This document shows positions 33,769-59,838 of a stretch of 64,000 nucleotides of DNA, in pieces. The position numbers and the translations under genes are program-made. The notes under the pieces were generated by a model that ran no database searches, was not told the DNA's origin, and saw only the letters and a program-made list of their open reading frames with translations. Every line of letters begins with the position of its first letter. Positions within the stretch are counted from its first letter, which is position 1. This stretch comes from Theionarchaea archaeon (GTDB taxonomy: Archaea; Methanobacteriota_B; Thermococci; Methanofastidiosales; SZ-28-30): assembly GCA_018992685.1 (NCBI GenBank), contig JACVGT010000014.1:1-64000 (forward strand). The letters are read 5' to 3'.

Positions 33769-33772
33769 TGTG

Positions 33773-35095
33773 ATGACGGACCATACGAGATGTGCAGTGA
33801 AAAAAGCGCTTGAACACGGAGCAACAGATGTCATTGCCAAGGAAATTACGCGCCGTAACCAGCAGGTGCGATTCTCCAATAATGAGATCGACATAGCCAA
33901 GACGTGGTATGAGACCGTGCTGAAGATATTTCTTGTGCATGAGAAAAGAGTTGTACTCACAGAAATCAGTAATTTTGACACTCTTGATGAGACGCTGAGC
34001 CGGGCACTAAGACTGGCCAGAATCAGTAGGGAAAATCCGGAATACAGGGGAATTGCTGAAGGTCCCTTTGAGTATCCAGAGACCAAGAGCGATTCCAGAT
34101 TGAAGAAGATCACAGATCACACAGATTACATCATGGCTGCCATTAACAAAGCTATTGAGCAGGCTGAGACTACGTTTGGCACTCTGCAGATAATAAATGA
34201 GACTATGGCACTGTCAACCTCACGGAATGTGGAAGTTCACGATGAGAAGGCGTCCATTGAGCTTTCTATCCGGGCATTCTCTCAGAAGGAGGCTTCTGGG
34301 CATAGCGTGACCTGTTCTTCTACACTCAAAGGATTCAATCCTGAGAAAGCGGGGGAAGAAGCAGGTGAGTATGCCCGCCTTGCCAGAAATCCTGAACAGG
34401 GAAAAGAAGGTACATACGATGTTGTGTTCTCCCCTCTCTTTGTGGGATCTATTTTGAACTACTCCACTGACATGATTTCTGCATTCAGCGTCTTGGCAGG
34501 ACGCTCCATGTACGGGGGGAAAATCGGGGAGAAGGTTGCCTCGGAGGCCGTCACTGTTGTGGATACGCCCGCAGGATTCAACAGAGTGATGGTTGATGAT
34601 GAAGGAGTTCCAACCAGAGACACTATTCTGATTGACAAGGGAGAACTGAGAACCTATCTTCACAATACGTCAACAGCTAGAGCGATGAACACAGAAACCA
34701 CAGCCAATGCCGGATTGGTAAAGCCAGAACCGCTGAATATCTGGATGCATCCGGGAGGGTATAGCAGTGAGGCACTTTTCCAGAGTGTCGAGAATGGGTT
34801 GTATCTCACAAATACCTGGTACACTCGGTTCCAGAACATGCAGACTGGAGACTTCTCCACCATACCGCGTGATGCTATCCTCGTTATTAAGAAAGGAGAA
34901 ATCGCCGGGTCTATAAAGAATATTAGGGTTTCAGACAATATGCTGCAGCTTTATCTGAACATGGAAGCTGTGGGGAAGGAACAAAAGGTGGTTCACTGGT
35001 GGGCTGAAGTGCAATTCCCGTGTTTTGCGTCTCATGTACTGGTCCGAAACGTCCACATTACTCGATCGACAGAATCAACGAGTCCATCACAGTAG
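33773..35095 (+). CDS. pmbA: TldE/PmbA, partner of TldD
   Basis: A 440-residue TldE-type protein: shared fold with TldD (ARRNQQVRFSNNEID-like N-terminus, VDDEGVPTRDTILIDKGELRTYLHNTSTARAMN near 300), but no HExxxH, as usual for TldE. It is the non-metal-binding partner in the heterodimer. ATG 33773 follows GAGGTGAT; a GTG at 33770 is in frame. The pair could mature a ribosomally made peptide, but the tandem peptide ORF at 45759 is 10 kb away and no link is visible. Confidence 0.92.
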   Translation: MTDHTRCAVKKALEHGATDVIAKEITRRNQQVRFSNNEIDIAKTWYETVLKIFLVHEKRVVLTEISNFDTLDETLSRALRLARISRENPEYRGIAEGPFEYPETKSDSRLKKITDHTDYIMAAINKAIEQAETTFGTLQIINETMALSTSRNVEVHDEKASIELSIRAFSQKEASGHSVTCSSTLKGFNPEKAGEEAGEYARLARNPEQGKEGTYDVVFSPLFVGSILNYSTDMISAFSVLAGRSMYGGKIGEKVASEAVTVVDTPAGFNRVMVDDEGVPTRDTILIDKGELRTYLHNTSTARAMNTETTANAGLVKPEPLNIWMHPGGYSSEALFQSVENGLYLTNTWYTRFQNMQTGDFSTIPRDAILVIKKGEIAGSIKNIRVSDNMLQLYLNMEAVGKEQKVVHWWAEVQFPCFASHVLVRNVHITRSTESTSPSQ

Positions 35096-43590: not shown

Positions 43591-43800
43591 ATGGCATTAC
43601 CACTAGCATCTGTTGACAAGTTGATTCGAAAGGCCGGTGCTCACCGTGTGTCAGAAGACGCGGCTAAGGAACTTGCAGCTCATCTGCAGGAGACAGCTAT
43701 CGAGGTTGCCCGCGAAGCCATAACACTGGCAGACCACGCAGGGAGAAAGACGGTCAAGGCCGAGGACATTGCGCTGGCCAAGAAGCGAATGTTTGAGTGA
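43591..43800 (+). CDS. archaeal histone
   Basis: A 69-residue single-fold histone: PLASVDKLIRKAGAHRVSEDAAKELAAHLQ, the central long helix, and the KTVKAEDIALAKKR end all match the HMf family. It forms dimers that wrap DNA. No tail. The strong promoter and AAGGAGG site fit high expression. A T-rich run follows the stop. Confidence 0.97.
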   Translation: MALPLASVDKLIRKAGAHRVSEDAAKELAAHLQETAIEVAREAITLADHAGRKTVKAEDIALAKKRMFE

Positions 43801-45448: not shown

Positions 45449-45702
45449 GAGAGCTATTCGCATACAGGATTTTAAAACTTTTCCGGAAGAACCGCAGCCA
45501 GCCTATGATTCATCAAAGAATGACTAGTGGGGGTTCTGCCAACCATCACATTCTGGCAGTACAAAGGTATATAGTACTGATTACGAATCTTTACAGATTT
45601 ACAATGCGTTGAGAAAGCTTGGAATACACAGCTTGATAAGAACAGGCTGCTGTGAAACCAACTAGCTAGCCCCACAACACTCGCGAAATCTGCGAAAAAT
45701 CG
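45449..45702 (+). other. non-coding stretch with candidate promoter
   Basis: The stretch holds the asparaginase promoter (minus strand, about 45472-45481) and a GGTATATAGTA box at 45566-45577 facing right, which could start a transcript near 45598 through the small peptide ORF at 45759. No tRNA or conserved ORF seen. Confidence 0.4.
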
Positions 45703-45771
45703 ATGAGTGACAGAAAACTTCTAAAGGTGGAACTCACAAATGAGTTAGAGGTGAGAAAATGGACTGCATAA
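45703..45771 (+). CDS. possible 22-residue leader peptide
   Basis: MSDRKLLKVELTNELEVRKWTA ends inside the next small ORF, overlapping it in another frame by 13 bases. It has no clear ribosome site, so coding is doubtful; ribosomes leaving it would pass the GAGGTGA site of the tandem peptide, which would fit translational coupling. Confidence 0.2.
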   Translation: MSDRKLLKVELTNELEVRKWTA

Positions 45772-45842
45772 GGAAACTCGGTGGAGGACCAGGTGTCCCC
45801 ACGAAATTGGGTGGAGGACCAGGTGTCCCGACATCCAACTGA
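45759..45842 (+). CDS. 27-residue tandem KLGGGPGVPT peptide
   Basis: The ORF encodes MDCIR, then KLGGGPGVPT twice, then SN and stop. GAGGTGA ends four bases before the ATG, a strong ribosome site. The two 30-base repeats differ at four bases (CTC/TTG, CCC/CCG, ACG/ACA) and every difference is silent, so both decapeptides are identical. This pattern argues that the peptide itself is under selection. The peptide is Gly/Pro-rich with one cysteine near the N-terminus; it might be a secreted or modified peptide, a metal-binding tag or a regulatory peptide. No modifying enzyme or exporter lies next to it. Function unknown. Confidence 0.55.
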   Translation: MDCIRKLGGGPGVPTKLGGGPGVPTSN

Positions 45843-45870
45843 ATAATTCACTCGTTCAAGGTAACTTCCG

Positions 45871-45930
45871 TGATCCATCACAGGATCAGGGTTATTCTTC
45901 TCATATTGGGTAATGGATCTTTTTTCTTTT
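45871..45930 (+). terminator. hairpin and T-tract after the tandem peptide
   Basis: TGATCC and GGATCA pair around a six-base loop (45871-45888), and a T-rich run follows at 45915-45928. Together they could end the small transcript. The separation of about 28 bases makes the link uncertain. Confidence 0.35.
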
Positions 45931-45981
45931 TCGTCCCTTCCCTACTCTTCTGGCCTAGCCGTGCTCATCCTTCAAGAAGCA

Positions 45982-46941
45982 TCATTCCACAAGACTCTGT
46001 TCTTCCTCACCCTCAATGTAGTGAAGGACGCCAATGGCCTGACTAAATTTGTCTATCATGCCGCTGGTTTTCATGAATTGAAGCGTTGCTGAAAGATCAG
46101 TGAAGGTGAGATCTGACTTGATGCTCAGCCACACCAGCAACCCTTCCTCGGTATGGGTACAGACAGTACTGGTAGGAAGGTTTGAGAGGAGTGCAATTAC
46201 TGCGTCAGTGTATCCAGTTCTGAGGAGGAACACAAAGTGAGTGTAGTTGAGATAGCCATCAGGGTAGAACCTCATGAGGACAGTCGTATGGTTACAGACA
46301 GTTTCTAGCCACTGGTAAAACTTGTCAGATGAGATCAAATGTTTTCTCAACGCAGGAGTGACTTTCTTTCTGAAATCATATTCATATTCATAAAACAGTT
46401 TCCATTCTTCTTCATCCCAGGAGGGAGGTTCATGGACAGGCAACCCCACCTTTTCAAGACCATTGGGCTCAAACTCGTGTGCCTGACTCTTCATTCGCTT
46501 GAAAGCTGGAATCCAATCAGTGAGAGGGACCCGGGGAGTAGTGATGTCTCCTCGTACTCCCTGGAACAATAAGTATTCAAATCCTTCAATGTGAGAGGGG
46601 TCATATTTCCCGTCTGAAATGTACATGATGTTCCAGTCTCCTAGGAACAAGCTACAATAGTCGATCTGAGGAATCTCTCTTAGCTGTTCAAATGCATTGT
46701 TTGGATCATCAAACTTGACGAGATGAAAGTATTTATTTAGTCCGGGATAGTATTCAAGTCTCAATTCTGGTCCAAACAGTATCTGAGAATCATACATATG
46801 ATCTAAATAGCTGGAAACTGTATTTCGTGCCATTTTAACATTCTTAGAAATCTCATGAACGTGTACTCTGGGATTTACATATATTTGATTATATATAGCA
46901 TGGTATCTTCTCAATTTCTCCTTTCTTGTAAGTTTGCTCAT
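45982..46941 (-). CDS. HTH transcription regulator, divergent from the Hdr operon
   Basis: The 319-residue protein begins with a winged helix-turn-helix (LRRYHAIYNQIYVNPRVHVHEISKNVKMARNTVSSYLDHMYDSQILFGPELR), Lrp-like in pattern, followed by about 240 residues of a mostly unique ligand or effector region (FLGDWNIMYISDGKYD, WLETVCNHTTVLMRFYPDG). There is no phosphorylation or metal motif. A TATA box at 46960-46970 places the start near ATG 46941; an ATG at 46950 is also in frame. Its position, facing the hdrC promoter across 470 bases with inverted repeats, makes it a candidate regulator of the Hdr-Mvh operon. Confidence 0.7.
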   Translation of the reverse strand: MSKLTRKEKLRRYHAIYNQIYVNPRVHVHEISKNVKMARNTVSSYLDHMYDSQILFGPELRLEYYPGLNKYFHLVKFDDPNNAFEQLREIPQIDYCSLFLGDWNIMYISDGKYDPSHIEGFEYLLFQGVRGDITTPRVPLTDWIPAFKRMKSQAHEFEPNGLEKVGLPVHEPPSWDEEEWKLFYEYEYDFRKKVTPALRKHLISSDKFYQWLETVCNHTTVLMRFYPDGYLNYTHFVFLLRTGYTDAVIALLSNLPTSTVCTHTEEGLLVWLSIKSDLTFTDLSATLQFMKTSGMIDKFSQAIGVLHYIEGEEEQSLVE

Positions 46942-46959
46942 ATAACTCATCCCAACATT

Positions 46960-46970
46960 AATATAGTACT
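46960..46970 (-). promoter_or_regulatory. TATA box of the HTH regulator gene
   Basis: Minus-strand ACTATATTAAT is centred about 25 bases from ATG 46941. Confidence 0.5.
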
Positions 46971-46987
46971 TCTTCGTAGCTATGTAC

Positions 46988-47006
46988 GTCCATATCGCAT
47001 ATGGAC
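46988..47006. repeat. perfect 8-bp inverted repeat (operator-like)
   Basis: GTCCATAT and ATATGGAC flank a CGC spacer. It lies just upstream of the regulator's TATA box and could be a binding site for that regulator's dimer. Confidence 0.5.
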
Positions 47007-47028
47007 CGATGTATAGGCTATGTCCCTA

Positions 47029-47038
47029 AGCTATAAAT
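47029..47038 (+). promoter_or_regulatory. candidate promoter ahead of the 12-bp hairpin
   Basis: GCTATAAATA lies before the inverted repeat at 47069. A transcript from here would begin near 47060 and fold almost at once. Confidence 0.35.
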
Positions 47039-47068
47039 ACCTTTCGGCACGGATCTTTCACCCCCTTC

Positions 47069-47095
47069 GAGACCGGTTGTTCTACAACCGGTCTC
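47069..47095. repeat. perfect 12-bp inverted repeat with 3-base loop
   Basis: GAGACCGGTTGT and ACAACCGGTCTC flank TCT. It is the strongest hairpin in the window. T-rich runs follow from 47115, so it may be a terminator or small RNA; as DNA it could be an operator. Confidence 0.7.
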
Positions 47096-47097
47096 CC

Positions 47098-47127
47098 AAA
47101 CACGACAAACACGCTTTTTTAAACACG
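47098..47127. repeat. three direct AAACACG repeats
   Basis: AAACACG occurs at 47098-47104, 47107-47113 and 47121-47127, right after the long inverted repeat. Such iterated heptamers are typical of regulator-binding sites. Confidence 0.45.
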
Positions 47128-47313
47128 TTTTTCTTTCCTTTTTCTAATCAACTCAACATGTCCACTCTTTCGTGATAATATTTTATTAGGTTCCTTCTGG
47201 ACGCCTCCAGAGGGTGTTCTCCTGACCTTTCCAGATAGTGCACACCGTTTCAATGTCTTCCCTATGTCTCGACTACCTTCTCGAAATATATTTACACATT
47301 TTCTACAGAAAAA

Positions 47314-50760: not shown

Positions 50761-51497
50761 CATTTTCTCCTAGGATTGTAGGGTTCATGTGTAACTGGTG
50801 TTCGTATGCAGGAGCTGATCTGGCTGGAATTTCGAGGATAAAATATGCTCCCAATCTGAGGATTATCAGAGTGCTGTGTTCCGGGCGAGTTGACCCTTAC
50901 GTAGTTCTGACCGCATTCCAAAAGGGTGCAGACGGCGTTCTGGTTGCAGGGTGCCACCCTGGAGACTGCCACTACATATCAGGGAACTACCAGGCAGAAA
51001 AGAAAATGAAAGCGACATGGAAGATATTGAGCAAAGCAGGGATTGATCAAGAAAGACTGGGACTGGAATGGATTTCTGCAGCAGAAGGTCAGCGATTTGC
51101 TGACGTTGTCAACTCGTTTACTCAACTGATTACTGAGTTGGGACCGCTTCAGGCTGATCCGCAGAAGATTGCCTCGGCCAAGGAAGAGACTGCAGATTTC
51201 AGAATTAGGTGGCTGGTGGGAAGAGAAAAAGACTTGCTGGAAGAGGGAAATGTGTTTGGCGAACCTGTAGAAGAAGCAGTGTTTGAGACCCTTCTGGATG
51301 ATGTTGTTTCTGCCCAATACATCAGGAATTCTATTCTCACCGTGCTCAAGGAACAGTCTATGTCAGCCAAAGAACTGGCAGAAACTCTTGAAATTCCTTC
51401 TCACGTGGTTGTGGAGCATTTGATTCACCTGCGGAGAGGGCAGAAGGTGCACATGGTTGAAGGTCATCCCATTCGGTACGAGGTGAGCGCATGGTAG
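50757..51497 (+). CDS. mvhD: MvhD-like 2Fe-2S protein with C-terminal winged-helix-like domain
   Basis: Residues 1-135 match MvhD: FMCNWCSYAGADLAG, CSGRVDP and GCHPGDCHYISGNY carry the five cysteines of the cluster that links hydrogenase to HdrA. A spacer then leads to about 75 residues (SILTVLKEQSMSAKELAETLEIPSHVVVEHLIHLRRGQKV) that read as a helix-turn-helix or winged helix. Plain MvhD, as in the second copy at 54463, has about 136 residues. GTG start overlapping hdrA, seven-base overlap with the next gene. The extra domain might dock partners rather than bind DNA. Confidence 0.85.
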   Translation: MTFSPRIVGFMCNWCSYAGADLAGISRIKYAPNLRIIRVLCSGRVDPYVVLTAFQKGADGVLVAGCHPGDCHYISGNYQAEKKMKATWKILSKAGIDQERLGLEWISAAEGQRFADVVNSFTQLITELGPLQADPQKIASAKEETADFRIRWLVGREKDLLEEGNVFGEPVEEAVFETLLDDVVSAQYIRNSILTVLKEQSMSAKELAETLEIPSHVVVEHLIHLRRGQKVHMVEGHPIRYEVSAW

Positions 51498-54460
51498 GTT
51501 CCATAATGGTTGTAGGAGGAGGAATTGCAGGAATGCAGGCCTCCCTGGATCTGGCAGATTCTGGATTTCGAGTATACCTGGTGGATAAAGCACCCACTAT
51601 TGGTGGAGTGATGGCTCAGCTGGACAAAACCTTCCCCACACTGGACTGCTCCATGTGTATCATGGCTCCCAAGCTCGTGGCCACCGGGAGGCACCACAAT
51701 ATCCATCTGCTTACCAATGCAGTGATCACCAATGTGGAGGGAACCCCAGGCAACTTCACCGTAACGGTGACAATGAAGCCCCGTTACGTAAACGCGGAGA
51801 AATGCACAGGATGCGGACTGTGTGCCCAGTACTGCCCTGTAGAAGCAGTAAATGAATATGATGAACGACTGACGTTGCGCAGAGGTATCTACGTGGACTA
51901 TCCTCAGGCAGTCCCGTTGGTATATGCGATAGACAGAGAGAAGTGCATTGGATGCGGATTGTGTGAGAATATTTGCCAGGCTGAAGCCATTGAATATCAT
52001 CAGACTCCTGAAGAAGAACAGGTGAATGTAGGTGCCATTATTCTGGCGGCAGGATTTGACGAATTTGAACCTGATACCAAGAAGGAATATGGGTACGGCA
52101 GGTTCAAGAATGTGGTGACTGCCACTGAATTCGAGCGCATCCTCAGTGCTTCAGGTCCCTTTGCAGGACACGTGGTGAGGCCTTCTGATGGTGAAGTCCC
52201 GGGGAGAATAGCATTCTTGCAGTGCGTGGGGTCCAGAGATGAAAACAGCAACAAGTATTGCTCTGCCGTGTGCTGCATGTATGCCACAAAGGAAGCTATT
52301 ATTGCCAAAGAACACAACCCCGACCTTGAGGCAACAATCTTTTTCATGGACATGCGTACCTACGGGAAAGGGTTTGAACAGTTCTACAAGAGAGCCCAGT
52401 CTGAATACGGTCTCAGATACACGAGAAGCCGCGTCCCCTGTATTGAAGCAGACCCCGAAACTCAAAACCTCCTTCTTACCTATGAAACAGAAGATGGTAC
52501 CATAACTAAAGAAGAATTTGACATGGTGGTCCTCTCAGTGGGGTTGGAGCCGCCAAAATCCAATCAAGAGCTGAGCAGCATTTTCGGTGTTCCTCTGAAT
52601 GAATATGGGTTCCTAGACTGGAAAATATTTGAACCCCTCAAGGCAAAGGACGGCATATATGCATGCGGAGCCTTCTCTGGACCAAAAGACATTCCTGATA
52701 CTGTGGCGCAGGCATCAGGAGCAGCAGCTATGGCATCAGGCGTAGTCTCCGGAGAACGGGGCACTCTCGTGGAAGAAAAGGTCTATCCTGAGGAGCTGGA
52801 CGTTGCGGAACAGCCGCCCCGAATTGGTGTTTTCGTGTGCTGGTGCGGTATCAATATAGGTGGCATTGTCAATGTGCCCGAGGTGATGGAGTATGCCTCC
52901 ACCCTCCCCAATGTGGTGTTCGTCGACCAGAATCTGTATACATGTTCACAGGATACGCAGGAGAAGATCAAACAGGCAGTGGAAGAGCACAGCCTGAACC
53001 GTGTGGTTGTTGCGTCCTGTACACCGCGAACACACGAACCGCTGTTCCAGAGCACTATTCGGGAAGCTGGGCTGAACCCGTATCTCTTTGAGATGACAAA
53101 CATTAGAGACCAATGTTCCTGGGTTCACATGCACACTCCAGAAGAAGCTACAGAAAAGGCAAAGGACCTGGTGAGAATGGCGGTAGCCAAATCCAATCTA
53201 CTGGAGCCATTGAAGAGTTCGTCAGTTGAGGTCACTCAGTCTGGACTGGTCATTGGAGGCGGTATTGCGGGAATGACAGCAGCTCTGGGCCTGGCTCAAC
53301 AGGGATTCACTGTCCACCTGGTAGAAAAGGAGGATCATCTGGGAGGGCTGCTGCGTGACATACGCTACACGGTGAGCGGGGAAGACCCCCAGGAGTATTT
53401 GACAGGTCTGGAACAGAGTCTCAGAGATCATCCCAATGTCACCATCCACACACAAGCAGTTGTGGAGAAAGTTGAGGGATATGTGGGGAACTTCACCACC
53501 ACACTGTCCTCAGGAGAGGAAATCAACCATGGAATCTGCGTTATAGCTGTAGGAGGGCAAGAGCACAAGCCCACCAGTTATCTGTATGGCGAGGACAAGA
53601 GAGTCATCACCCAGCTGGAATTTGAGGATATGCTCTCCAAAGGAGTGAAGGCCAAGACTGTGGTGATGATAAATTGTGTGGAATCCAGAGATGACACCAA
53701 GGAATACTGCTCCAGGGTATGCTGTTCAGAAGCTGTGAAAAATGCTTTACAGCTGAGAGAACAGAATCCAGACGCAACCATATATATTCTGTACAGGGAC
53801 ATGAGAACCTACGCGTTCAGAGAGCAGTACTATGACAAGGCACGGGAAGCAGGTGTCGTATTCATGAGGTATGATCCAGAGACAAAACCTCGACTGGAAA
53901 AGAAAGACAAATCGTTGGTGTTATACGCGCACGATTCTGCTCTGGATCTTGACTTTGAACTGCATCCCGACCTGGTTGTACTGTCTACAGGAGTATCTCC
54001 CTATGACAACTCAGCGCTCTCTCAGATGCTCAAAGTCCCTCTTGACAGAGACGGGTTCTTCTTGGAAGCCCACATGAAACTGCGCCCGGTGGATTTTGCC
54101 ACAGACGGGGTATTCATGGCAGGGCTGGCACATTCTCCCAAGTTCATTGATGAGACGATTTCTCAGGCTTTTGGAACAGTTGCCCGGGCTTGTACCATCG
54201 TCTCAAAAGAGAGAATAGAGACAGAGCCAATCATTGCAGAAGTTGATGAAGAACTCTGCTGCGGGTGCCAGGTATGTATACCAATGTGCCCGTATAATGC
54301 ACGTGAATTAGATGAGGAGGAGAAGATAGTCAAGGTCAACGAAGTGCTCTGCAAAGGGTGCGGTTCGTGTGTTGCTGCATGTCCCTCCAAGGCAGCTCAG
54401 CAGAGACACTTCCGTGACAGCCAATTAAGTTCCATGATTGAGGCCTTTGTGAGGCGATAA
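51491..54460 (+). CDS. double HdrA fusion (HdrA-HdrA)
   Basis: The 989-residue protein holds two HdrA units. The first (about 1-425) has the FAD loop GGGIAGMQASLDLADSG, DCSMCIMAPKL and an inserted ferredoxin (CTGCGLCAQYCP and CIGCGLCENIC) but lacks the N-terminal HdrA domain. The second (about 440-989) has that domain (VFVCWCGINIGG), FAD loop GGGIAGMTAALGLAQQG, no inserted ferredoxin, and a C-terminal ferredoxin (CCGCQVCIPMCP and CKGCGSCVAACP). So the fusion carries two flavins and four clusters. Such fusions occur in sulfate reducers and some archaea. It is followed two bases later by mvhD. Confidence 0.92.
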   Translation: MVGSIMVVGGGIAGMQASLDLADSGFRVYLVDKAPTIGGVMAQLDKTFPTLDCSMCIMAPKLVATGRHHNIHLLTNAVITNVEGTPGNFTVTVTMKPRYVNAEKCTGCGLCAQYCPVEAVNEYDERLTLRRGIYVDYPQAVPLVYAIDREKCIGCGLCENICQAEAIEYHQTPEEEQVNVGAIILAAGFDEFEPDTKKEYGYGRFKNVVTATEFERILSASGPFAGHVVRPSDGEVPGRIAFLQCVGSRDENSNKYCSAVCCMYATKEAIIAKEHNPDLEATIFFMDMRTYGKGFEQFYKRAQSEYGLRYTRSRVPCIEADPETQNLLLTYETEDGTITKEEFDMVVLSVGLEPPKSNQELSSIFGVPLNEYGFLDWKIFEPLKAKDGIYACGAFSGPKDIPDTVAQASGAAAMASGVVSGERGTLVEEKVYPEELDVAEQPPRIGVFVCWCGINIGGIVNVPEVMEYASTLPNVVFVDQNLYTCSQDTQEKIKQAVEEHSLNRVVVASCTPRTHEPLFQSTIREAGLNPYLFEMTNIRDQCSWVHMHTPEEATEKAKDLVRMAVAKSNLLEPLKSSSVEVTQSGLVIGGGIAGMTAALGLAQQGFTVHLVEKEDHLGGLLRDIRYTVSGEDPQEYLTGLEQSLRDHPNVTIHTQAVVEKVEGYVGNFTTTLSSGEEINHGICVIAVGGQEHKPTSYLYGEDKRVITQLEFEDMLSKGVKAKTVVMINCVESRDDTKEYCSRVCCSEAVKNALQLREQNPDATIYILYRDMRTYAFREQYYDKAREAGVVFMRYDPETKPRLEKKDKSLVLYAHDSALDLDFELHPDLVVLSTGVSPYDNSALSQMLKVPLDRDGFFLEAHMKLRPVDFATDGVFMAGLAHSPKFIDETISQAFGTVARACTIVSKERIETEPIIAEVDEELCCGCQVCIPMCPYNARELDEEEKIVKVNEVLCKGCGSCVAACPSKAAQQRHFRDSQLSSMIEAFVRR

Positions 54461-58833: not shown

Positions 58834-59664
58834 CTACGGTTTCTTGCCTTTTCCTTTGCTCTTACCCTTGTTCTTGTCTTTTCCCTTTCCTTTGCCGTTG
58901 TTGTTGCTGTCGCTTTCACTGTCCTCATCGTCTTTGTTGTTGCCATTTCCCTGATTCCCAAGAGAATTCTTCTCTCTGTTCTGTTCTCTGTTCTGTTCCT
59001 GGTTTTCATCCTCGCCTTCGTTCTGTTCTTCGTTCTGTTCTTCGTTTTCCTCTCCGTCCTCTCCGTTGTCTCTCTCGTACTTGCTCAGAGCATTCCCGGA
59101 GGTGTGGAGTGCAGCATTTGAAAGACCCTTTGCAGCACCAAGTTTTCCCTCTGCTGCCTTTTCAGCTGCCTTCTGCAGCAATTTAACAGCTACATTGTAT
59201 AGGGTCTCCACGGCCTGAGAAACTTCTCCCTCGCCTTCTTCGTCTTCTTCATCGTCGCCTATTTCATCGTCTCCGTCATCTTCGCCTTCTCCGTCATCTT
59301 CGCCTTCTCCGTCATCTTCGCCTTCTCCGTCATCTTCGCCTTCTCCGTCATCTTCGCCTTCTCCGTCATCTTCGCCTTCTCCGTCATCTTCGCCTTCTCC
59401 GTCATCGCCGTTAAGCAGCTCTTCAAGTTCTTTTATGTTATTGGCAGCATCAATGAACTGCTGTACCAGCGCTTCTGACATACCTTCGTTGTCGGCATCG
59501 TCAGGGAAGGGATCAAATTGATCAGGAATTCCATCGCCGTCAGAGTCAGCCCACGGATCAGTCTCTTCATCTTCTTCCGGAGGATCCTCTGAGTCTTCTG
59601 CAAGGATTGGATAGAGGTTTCCGATAAGCATCATGAGCATCAAGATCGCAATCAGCTTTTTCAT
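58834..59664 (-). CDS. secreted acidic repeat protein
   Basis: The 276-residue protein has a signal peptide (1-21), a calcium-binding thrombospondin-type-3 stretch (DSDGDGIPDQFDPFPDD), seven tandem GEGEDD hexapeptides, a helical Ala-rich core (VETLYNVAVKLLQKAAEKAAEG), a Gln/Glu/Asn-rich part and a basic GKGKGKDKNKGKSKGKGKK tail. The charge runs from strongly negative to strongly positive. This suggests an extracellular calcium-binding or scaffold protein. ATG 59664 follows AGGTGA; TATA-like GCTTATAAAG lies at 59695-59704. No family assigned. Confidence 0.7.
   Translation of the reverse strand: MKKLIAILMLMMLIGNLYPILAEDSEDPPEEDEETDPWADSDGDGIPDQFDPFPDDADNEGMSEALVQQFIDAANNIKELEELLNGDDGEGEDDGEGEDDGEGEDDGEGEDDGEGEDDGEGEDDGEGEDDGDDEIGDDEEDEEGEGEVSQAVETLYNVAVKLLQKAAEKAAEGKLGAAKGLSNAALHTSGNALSKYERDNGEDGEENEEQNEEQNEGEDENQEQNREQNREKNSLGNQGNGNNKDDEDSESDSNNNGKGKGKDKNKGKSKGKGKKP
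59270..59410 (-). repeat. 18-bp minisatellite coding for GEGEDD
   Basis: Seven nearly perfect 18-base copies plus a partial one, starting at 59270 on the plus strand. Copies are identical at the DNA level, so the array is young or kept homogeneous; length variation between strains is likely. Confidence 0.9.
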
Positions 59665-59838
59665 GTAGTTCACCTAATCCTCTTAGGCACGATCCTTTAT
59701 AAGCTTTTCGCCGAGTAGTCAGAATATTTTCAATCTTTTTAAGAAATTTCTTAAGTCTTTTGCGAAATATACAATACATGACAGTACTGTGTGTTATTGC
59801 GAAGGGAAACCCCCTGGAAAGATGCAGTCCTGCGCAAT

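Follow-up and report, generated by a model that had tools for sequence, protein, structure and literature searches.

Two Theionarchaea species, one of them the uncultured sediment archaeon studied here, carry a family of micropeptide genes with Gly/Pro-rich C-terminal ends, most of which lie tail-to-tail with genes for Lrp/AsnC-like regulators. The pairing is far above background and involves paralogous families in both species. We put the probability at roughly 55% that these are Theionarchaea-specific two-gene modules consisting of a micropeptide ligand and the regulator facing it, with a 27-codon micro-ORF as a two-core member. That micro-ORF is located in the window, the 64,000-nucleotide stretch of DNA analysed here, and was first noticed by eye. 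It is coding, is under purifying selection and has the promoter and Shine-Dalgarno geometry of the family. Feature coordinates are collected in Table 1.

Table 1. Features of the micro-ORF and of the facing regulator gene in the window
Feature	Position	Strand	Basis or remark
Micropeptide gene MDCIRKLGGGPGVPTKLGGGPGVPTSN, 27 aa, ATG...TGA	45759-45842	+	ORF; all-silent divergence in sister species
KLGGGPGVPT unit 1	45774-45803	+	direct repeat
KLGGGPGVPT unit 2	45804-45833	+	direct repeat; 4 silent differences from unit 1
Shine-Dalgarno GAGGTGA, at -11	45748-45754	+	window sequence; GAGGTG recurs in most micro-ORFs of the family (-11 to -13)
BRE/TATA-like promoter GAAAACTTCTAAAGG	45713-45727	+	conserved in sister species; same motif before histone gene
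TATA core	45718-45725	+	41 nt before ATG
Conserved element CTCGCGAAATCTGCGAAAAAT... upstream of promoter, possibly bound by regulator	45683-45712	+	near-identical in sister species
Conserved CATATTGGGTAATGG(A/G)TCTTTTTTCTTTTT, probable T-rich terminator	45902-45931	+	conservation; position of T-run
Candidate cognate regulator, 322-aa winged-helix protein, N-terminal half Lrp/AsnC-like	45982-46950	-	paralog family; profile matches
Ultra-conserved regulator promoter region	46951-47150	-	near-identity with sister species
27-bp palindrome GAGACCGGTTGTTCTACAACCGGTCTC	47069-47095		in regulator promoter region
GGGGGTGAAAGAT box	47053-47065		in regulator promoter region
TATA of regulator	about 47031-47040		in regulator promoter region
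Hairpin GTCCATAT..ATATGGAC	about 46988-47006		in regulator promoter region

Coding capacity and conservation of the micro-ORF

The initial annotation, made from the window DNA only, had described a 27-residue ORF with a GAGGTGA site and two identical decapeptides; coordinates, site and repeats all agree with the sequence. The intergenic gap housing the ORF measures 518 bp (45464-45981), rather than the 530 bases given there. The peptide ends in SN and contains neither a signal peptide nor the LKGWPFEP leader described below. Aligned in codon register, the two 30-nt repeat units differ at CTC/TTG (two changes), CCC/CCG and ACG/ACA, and recounting returned the same four silent differences. If four random substitutions were placed in the repeat unit, all would be silent with a probability of about 0.006, a value that is suggestive, though short of decisive, for a feature picked by eye.

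An independent test was provided by the single same-genus genome (G001, contig JACVGW010000005.1, 'Theionarchaea archaeon isolate SZ_28-30'), hereafter referred to as the sister species. A 4.5-kb region around the micro-ORF is syntenic at 82% identity; identity is about 85-95% for the micro-ORF and the block upstream of it, and only about 60-70% for the spacer beside the asparaginase gene. The sister micro-ORF encodes the identical 27-residue peptide with six nucleotide differences (AAA>AAG, CCA>CCT twice, ACG>ACA, TTG>CTG and TGA>TAA), all six of them silent (P = 3.6e-4 by chance), in what is a single comparison of two species, since only these two hold the family. Among 586 alignable small ORFs of 20-80 aa, taken in all frames within the window, just two display zero amino-acid change without an indel, namely the micro-ORF and the archaeal histone gene at 43591-43800 (19 changes, all silent). 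Competing frames fail the same comparison: the minus-strand frame (LDVGTPGPPP..., collagen-like) has two amino-acid changes and no Shine-Dalgarno sequence was seen before its TTG start, while the upstream overlapping frame (SMSDRKLLKVEL...) has several non-silent changes. Because the peptide is identical in the sister species with every change silent, because it is one of only two unchanged ORFs among 586 and because the minus-strand frame fails, translation and purifying selection of the micro-ORF can be considered about as firmly established as is feasible from sequence alone. The initial claim that the peptide is translated and selected is thereby sustained, the sister homolog carrying neither a frameshift nor a non-silent change. 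A role as leader peptide of a downstream gene was rejected, the next plus-strand gene lying 1.5 kb away, beyond the T-run.

The proposal that the ORF has its own promoter and terminator likewise stands, as GAAAACTTCTAAAGG and the T-run (45920-45931, within the terminator candidate CATATTGGGTAATGGRTCTTTTTTCTTTTT) are conserved in the sister species. The sequence preceding the histone gene, AAAAACTTATAAAGG, resembles this promoter. From general archaeal promoter spacing, transcription would start near 45745, giving a leader of roughly 14 nt that includes GAGGTGA. Separately, in the segment 43411-43540, which separates the histone gene from that of an RNA-binding protein, high conservation between the species is not confined to the promoter; the segment is possibly a structured histone mRNA leader.

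Both species retain, copy by copy, the differences between CTC and YTG and between CCC and CCG, and the duplication of the repeat is therefore, judging from this pattern, older than the species split. The core Pro codon, on the other hand, is CCA in one species and CCT in the other, the same in both copies within each species, so that the 20-nt repeat core GGTGGAGGACC[A/T]GGTGTCCC is identical between copies and has changed from A to T in parallel. This parallel change suggests gene conversion of the core; alternatively, the core may have an added nucleic-acid function. Carried to its extreme, the latter idea would make the locus a DNA or RNA element (tandem hairpins or binding sites, with a GGAC..GTCC stem) in which the open frame is incidental, and the co-changing core, whose variable base would sit in the hairpin loop, fits such an element. 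We regard it as highly improbable nonetheless: all 10 of the 10 observed changes are silent, stop-to-stop included, the Shine-Dalgarno sequence and start are conserved, the fold z-score is only -1.6, no Rfam family matches the locus, and what the paralogous genes have in common are peptide features, not the DNA of the window. Nor is the repeat dispersed, only its two copies occurring in the genome at up to three mismatches, as opposed to the recurrence elsewhere that the initial annotation had named as contrary evidence.

The DNA of the micro-ORF was not found outside the genus in the 61 genomes searched, and a search of 115 genomes of the phylum with the GGGPGVP codon pattern did not recover the gene outside the genus either. 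Scanning genome contigs for KLGGGPGVPT returned only the sister species and an ORF from Comamonadaceae that is about 380 codons long. GGGPGVP-type patterns in other genomes of the phylum, one Comamonadaceae contig and 11 viral contigs were set aside as chance occurrences, being mostly in long unrelated ORFs and never tandem. The search in related genomes for repeats of variable copy number, as had been recommended, thus yielded the same ORF in the sister species with an invariant number of two. The 27-mer has no match in PDB, Pfam or NCBIfam, in line with the earlier remark that no described family was known.

Convergent Lrp/AsnC-like regulators and the micropeptide family

Downstream, the micro-ORF is faced by a convergent regulator gene with a stop-to-stop gap of 139 bp and the terminator in between. 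The encoded protein is matched by no Pfam family at E 0.001, and it belongs to a family with about 20 paralogs in the window genome and 18 matches in the sister species. This family is held by 2 of the 115 genomes of the phylum and is absent from the remaining 113; no relatives were found in phages. A profile was built from 29 full-length members, and its first 127 positions (9-127) align to Lrp/AsnC PDB chains (7fby, E 8e-7; 1i1g, E 2e-5) over the winged-helix HTH followed by the RAM ligand domain that characterize Lrp/AsnC proteins. Pfam searches with the 29 members identified HTH_24 in 24 and an HTH_AsnC-type domain in 11, with no TPR family among the matches listed (25 of 34 Pfam families). 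At about 308-348 aa, the regulators are about twice the length of the single HTH-RAM unit of Lrp/AsnC (about 150 aa). Comparison of the two halves (hhalign, P 7e-5, probability 63%) hints weakly that the second half might be a diverged repeat, i.e., a tandem HTH-RAM duplication. An AlphaFold model made from two close sequences had a mean pLDDT of 34.

Upstream of the regulator, about 220 bp (46930-47150) contain about 6 changes between the species; nearby genes are 82-85% identical. The region, which has no Rfam match, is a candidate operator or structured leader. Its GGGGGTGAAAGAT box recurs in the promoters of the regulator paralogs L075, L089, L101, L102 and L114.

The 3' flank of every regulator paralog was inspected for convergent micro-ORFs led by a Shine-Dalgarno sequence. 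Such micro-ORFs are present at 16 of the 38 regulator family matches in the two species, as compared with 7 of 311 control genes (Fisher 2e-12), and if a Gly/Pro end is demanded as well, at 16/38 as compared with 1/311, the one control being only vaguely Gly/Pro (Fisher 2e-16); both P values are overstated, because orthologs and tandem duplicates are non-independent and because the peptides of L075 and L102 terminate in WPNSGEEG and WPNGGGGG instead of PG. These matches represent 14 distinct micropeptide-regulator pairs, and in most of them the stop codon of the micro-ORF overlaps or abuts that of the regulator. For over half of the regulator paralogs, no micropeptide was detectable. Examples are the peptides of L081 (MNVLKGYPFEPLKDLSLGGGDGDGPFPG, whose stop overlaps that of the regulator by 4 nt), L088 (MNFLKGWPFEPLDMIQGNVTTSGESGGGSPG), L093 (MISGEWLFETFDGTLTANGGPGAGSGNPT) and L090 (MNKNILAIVFAALILLGGVSDLLAETPNNPTENSCGIVVSLASLLDYPLTLLGIGNGGGNPG); L087, L108 and L109 have hydrophobic N-terminal signals and the tails GGGAPG, GSAPIPG and GGGAPG, respectively. 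Profile searches added L132, L134/L135, L139 (the ortholog of L093), L144 and L146/L141. Gly/Pro-ending micropeptide genes number about two dozen, most of them tail-to-tail with an Lrp-like regulator.

Two of these additions are arranged differently. L134 (1498-1689, minus strand) and L135 (1501-1692, plus strand) are an orphan micropeptide of secreted type (..GGPGGGAGPIPG), present in both species without an adjacent regulator and adjoining a cation-efflux-like gene. L144 (1501-1596, plus strand) is a micropeptide of the LKGWPFEP class beside an apparently decayed regulator 3' end.

Most family micro-ORFs, including that of the window, are preceded by GAGGTG at -11 to -13 and by a TATA-like box between -40 and -42, a joint geometry found in none of 141 control genes. 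On the basis of this shared control geometry, of its convergent placement and of its Gly/Pro core, we place the window micropeptide in the family despite its missing both leader types and its 139-bp distance from the regulator. It would be an atypical short two-core variant, its core likeness to the other members being short and compositional. The initial annotation was right about the gene, its selection, its promoter and its terminator and overlooked the multigene family convergent with Lrp/AsnC-like regulators, including the partner gene 139 bp downstream.

Peptide architecture and possible modes of action

Family micropeptides are 27-68 aa long. The long class carries a hydrophobic N-terminal stretch (mean hydropathy 2.5-3.3) and the short class an LKGWPFEP leader without a signal peptide; overall, about half of the family has a clear N-terminal hydrophobic export-type signal. 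Tails are Gly-rich (GGGNPG, GGGAPG, GGSPG, GGPGAGSGNPT, GDGPGSGMPC; GGGPGVPT in the window) and finish mostly in PG, PT or PC. In the ortholog pair L090/L114, one non-synonymous codon falls in the last 12 residues and 15 elsewhere; L081/L107 retains GGGDGDGPFPG, and L075/L102 retains GDGGGGGWPN with altered last residues. Judged from these alignments, the pattern is that of a propeptide whose C-terminal core is under selection. Mapped on the regulator tree, all four peptide class labels require 8 changes, compared with a mean of 12.8 after shuffling (none of 200 shuffles as low), and the LKG class requires 2 (as low in 1 of 500), a clustering as expected if the pairs are inherited together.

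From this architecture we infer ligand binding, export and signalling. The Gly/Pro-rich C-terminal segment would be the active ligand, which in the long class would be freed from a precursor of Sec type, leave the cell and probably be taken up again; re-import is possible because the genome has six matches to the oligopeptide-binding family SBP_bac_5. The short classes, including the window member, might act inside the cell or leave it via another exporter, as their export signal is absent. The peptide would then bind to the facing regulator at its ligand-sensing half, altering the DNA binding of that protein. Two GGGPGVPT cores per precursor could double the yield of ligand, or allow one peptide to bridge two dimer subunits. 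The initial guess of a signal or processed peptide was a fair one in this respect, with the ligand or signalling role itself a prediction from sequence. Extended to the whole genome, the ligand-receptor reading would give Theionarchaea around a dozen parallel peptide-signalling channels, each a secreted or cytoplasmic Gly/Pro-core micropeptide with its own tandem Lrp-like receptor and the window gene a two-core precursor; this extension we offer tentatively, as a possibility short of even odds.

The same pairing and selection evidence would also be obtained if the pair operated inside the cell without any cell-to-cell communication, the peptide tethering, inhibiting or stabilizing the regulator and the two cores serving as two binding motifs. 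The missing signal peptide of the window member and of the LKGWPFEP class agrees with such an arrangement. About half of the family, however, has both an export-type signal and a Gly/Pro tail of the same kind, pointing to export of those members, and we consider a purely intracellular role unlikely. Still more doubtful is a reading in which the micropeptides serve as precursors for antimicrobial or modified peptides that the cell secretes (archaeocin or RiPP-like), under control of the neighbouring regulator. A leader followed by a variable Gly-rich tail, the signal peptides and the diversification of the family are features that such precursors would have, but the final 12 residues show strong conservation rather than diversification (L090/L114 and the window orthologs), and tails rich in Gly, Pro and Asn are poor membrane-active sequences. 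Moreover, no RiPP-modifying enzyme, immunity gene or dedicated exporter was recognised among the neighbouring genes scanned in the window, from 33.8 to 59.7 kb. The TldD/E protease proposed earlier as a conserved neighbour is a TldD/PmbA family metallopeptidase gene at 33770-35095; it is 10 kb away with unrelated genes between and has no evident link to the micropeptide, and processing by it was rejected.

Three other features were recorded in the same part of the window. A 989-aa protein (51491-54460) in an Hdr-Vhu cluster matches HdrA2 in several stretches and is apparently a fused or duplicated HdrA. The VhuA-like hydrogenase large subunit encoded at 55845-57299 matches the selenoprotein subunit VhuU in its C-terminal part (438-460), an apparent fusion. 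An 18-bp tandem repeat (59236-59406) within the minus-strand ORF 58834-59673 includes 7.6 copies that are 100% identical (59270-59406), and 110 bp of it (59297-59406) match the sister species at 100%.

Relation to known systems and significance

Peptide communication is well described for Firmicutes and their phages. The RRNPP (or RRNPPA) systems of Firmicutes, e.g., PlcR-PapR, Rgg-SHP, ComR-ComS and AimR-AimP (PMC10075063, PMC9765709), are defined by a propeptide of 10-100 aa, Sec export (PptAB in Rgg/PrgX), a receptor of 250-500 aa with HTH and TPR, adjacency of the two genes, and binding of the peptide to the receptor with a change in target expression (PMC10075063). Likenesses are the adjacent genes for a small propeptide and an HTH receptor, the many putative Sec-type signals, the C-terminal core and the several paralogous pairs per genome; both sizes (27-68 aa, and about 308-348 aa with HTH_24 in 24/29) and the convergent adjacency (16/38 versus 7/311) fall within the definition. 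As to export, a hydrophobic N-terminal signal that may serve it is present in the long class and absent from the LKGWPFEP class and the window member. The receptor, in contrast, is Lrp/AsnC-like by its profile, with no TPR among the matches listed, and for that reason the Theionarchaea pairs are not RRNPP systems. They further differ in their convergent orientation with often overlapping stops and in having Gly/Pro-rich tails in place of the usual signals of 5-8 residues. The two kinds of pairs would be analogous, not homologous, and may work alike.

For the short form in the window, the nearest parallel is found in the leaderless communication peptides (LCPs) acting with RopB (PMC10518010), where a very short peptide gene without a secretion signal likewise lies beside the receptor gene. 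The described LCPs are hydrophobic, about 8-9 aa long, and transcribed divergently from an Rgg/RopB-type receptor (PMC10518010), whereas the window peptide has 27 aa, convergent transcription and an Lrp/AsnC-like receptor candidate. With Lrp/AsnC (feast/famine) proteins, the regulators share the N-terminal winged helix and the following ligand-domain region, and differ in their roughly doubled length and possibly repeated second half. Known ligands of Lrp proteins are amino acids, and to our knowledge no gene-encoded peptide ligand has been described for them.

Within the archaea, the small proteins of the Methanosarcina mazei Ribo-seq set (PMC11456600) resemble the micro-ORF in being stand-alone intergenic sORFs with their own promoter and Shine-Dalgarno sequence; they are mostly single uncharacterised genes, as opposed to paralogous peptides beside paralogous regulators. 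As far as a 2025 study on archaeal quorum sensing was available to us, it lists three true cases, with filI the only gene tested, and signals that are carboxy-AHL or otherwise unidentified or small-molecule, with no named peptide signal in that part (PMC12240190). The Theionarchaea pairs would resemble these cases in being density or peptide signalling in archaea. Our literature search, partial in coverage, did not find an archaeal peptide-signal/receptor pair, and novelty is accordingly provisional.

Micro-ORFs down to 27 codons can be recognised with confidence from two genomes by silent-only divergence and shared promoter geometry. The micropeptide/Lrp-like pairs look like an archaeal family of peptide signals and receptors that has so far gone undescribed. 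If this is true, they would constitute the first archaeal communication system based on peptides, with Lrp/AsnC-like regulators used as peptide receptors, and such lineage-specific pairs would show that gene-encoded peptide ligands have arisen with a different receptor fold.
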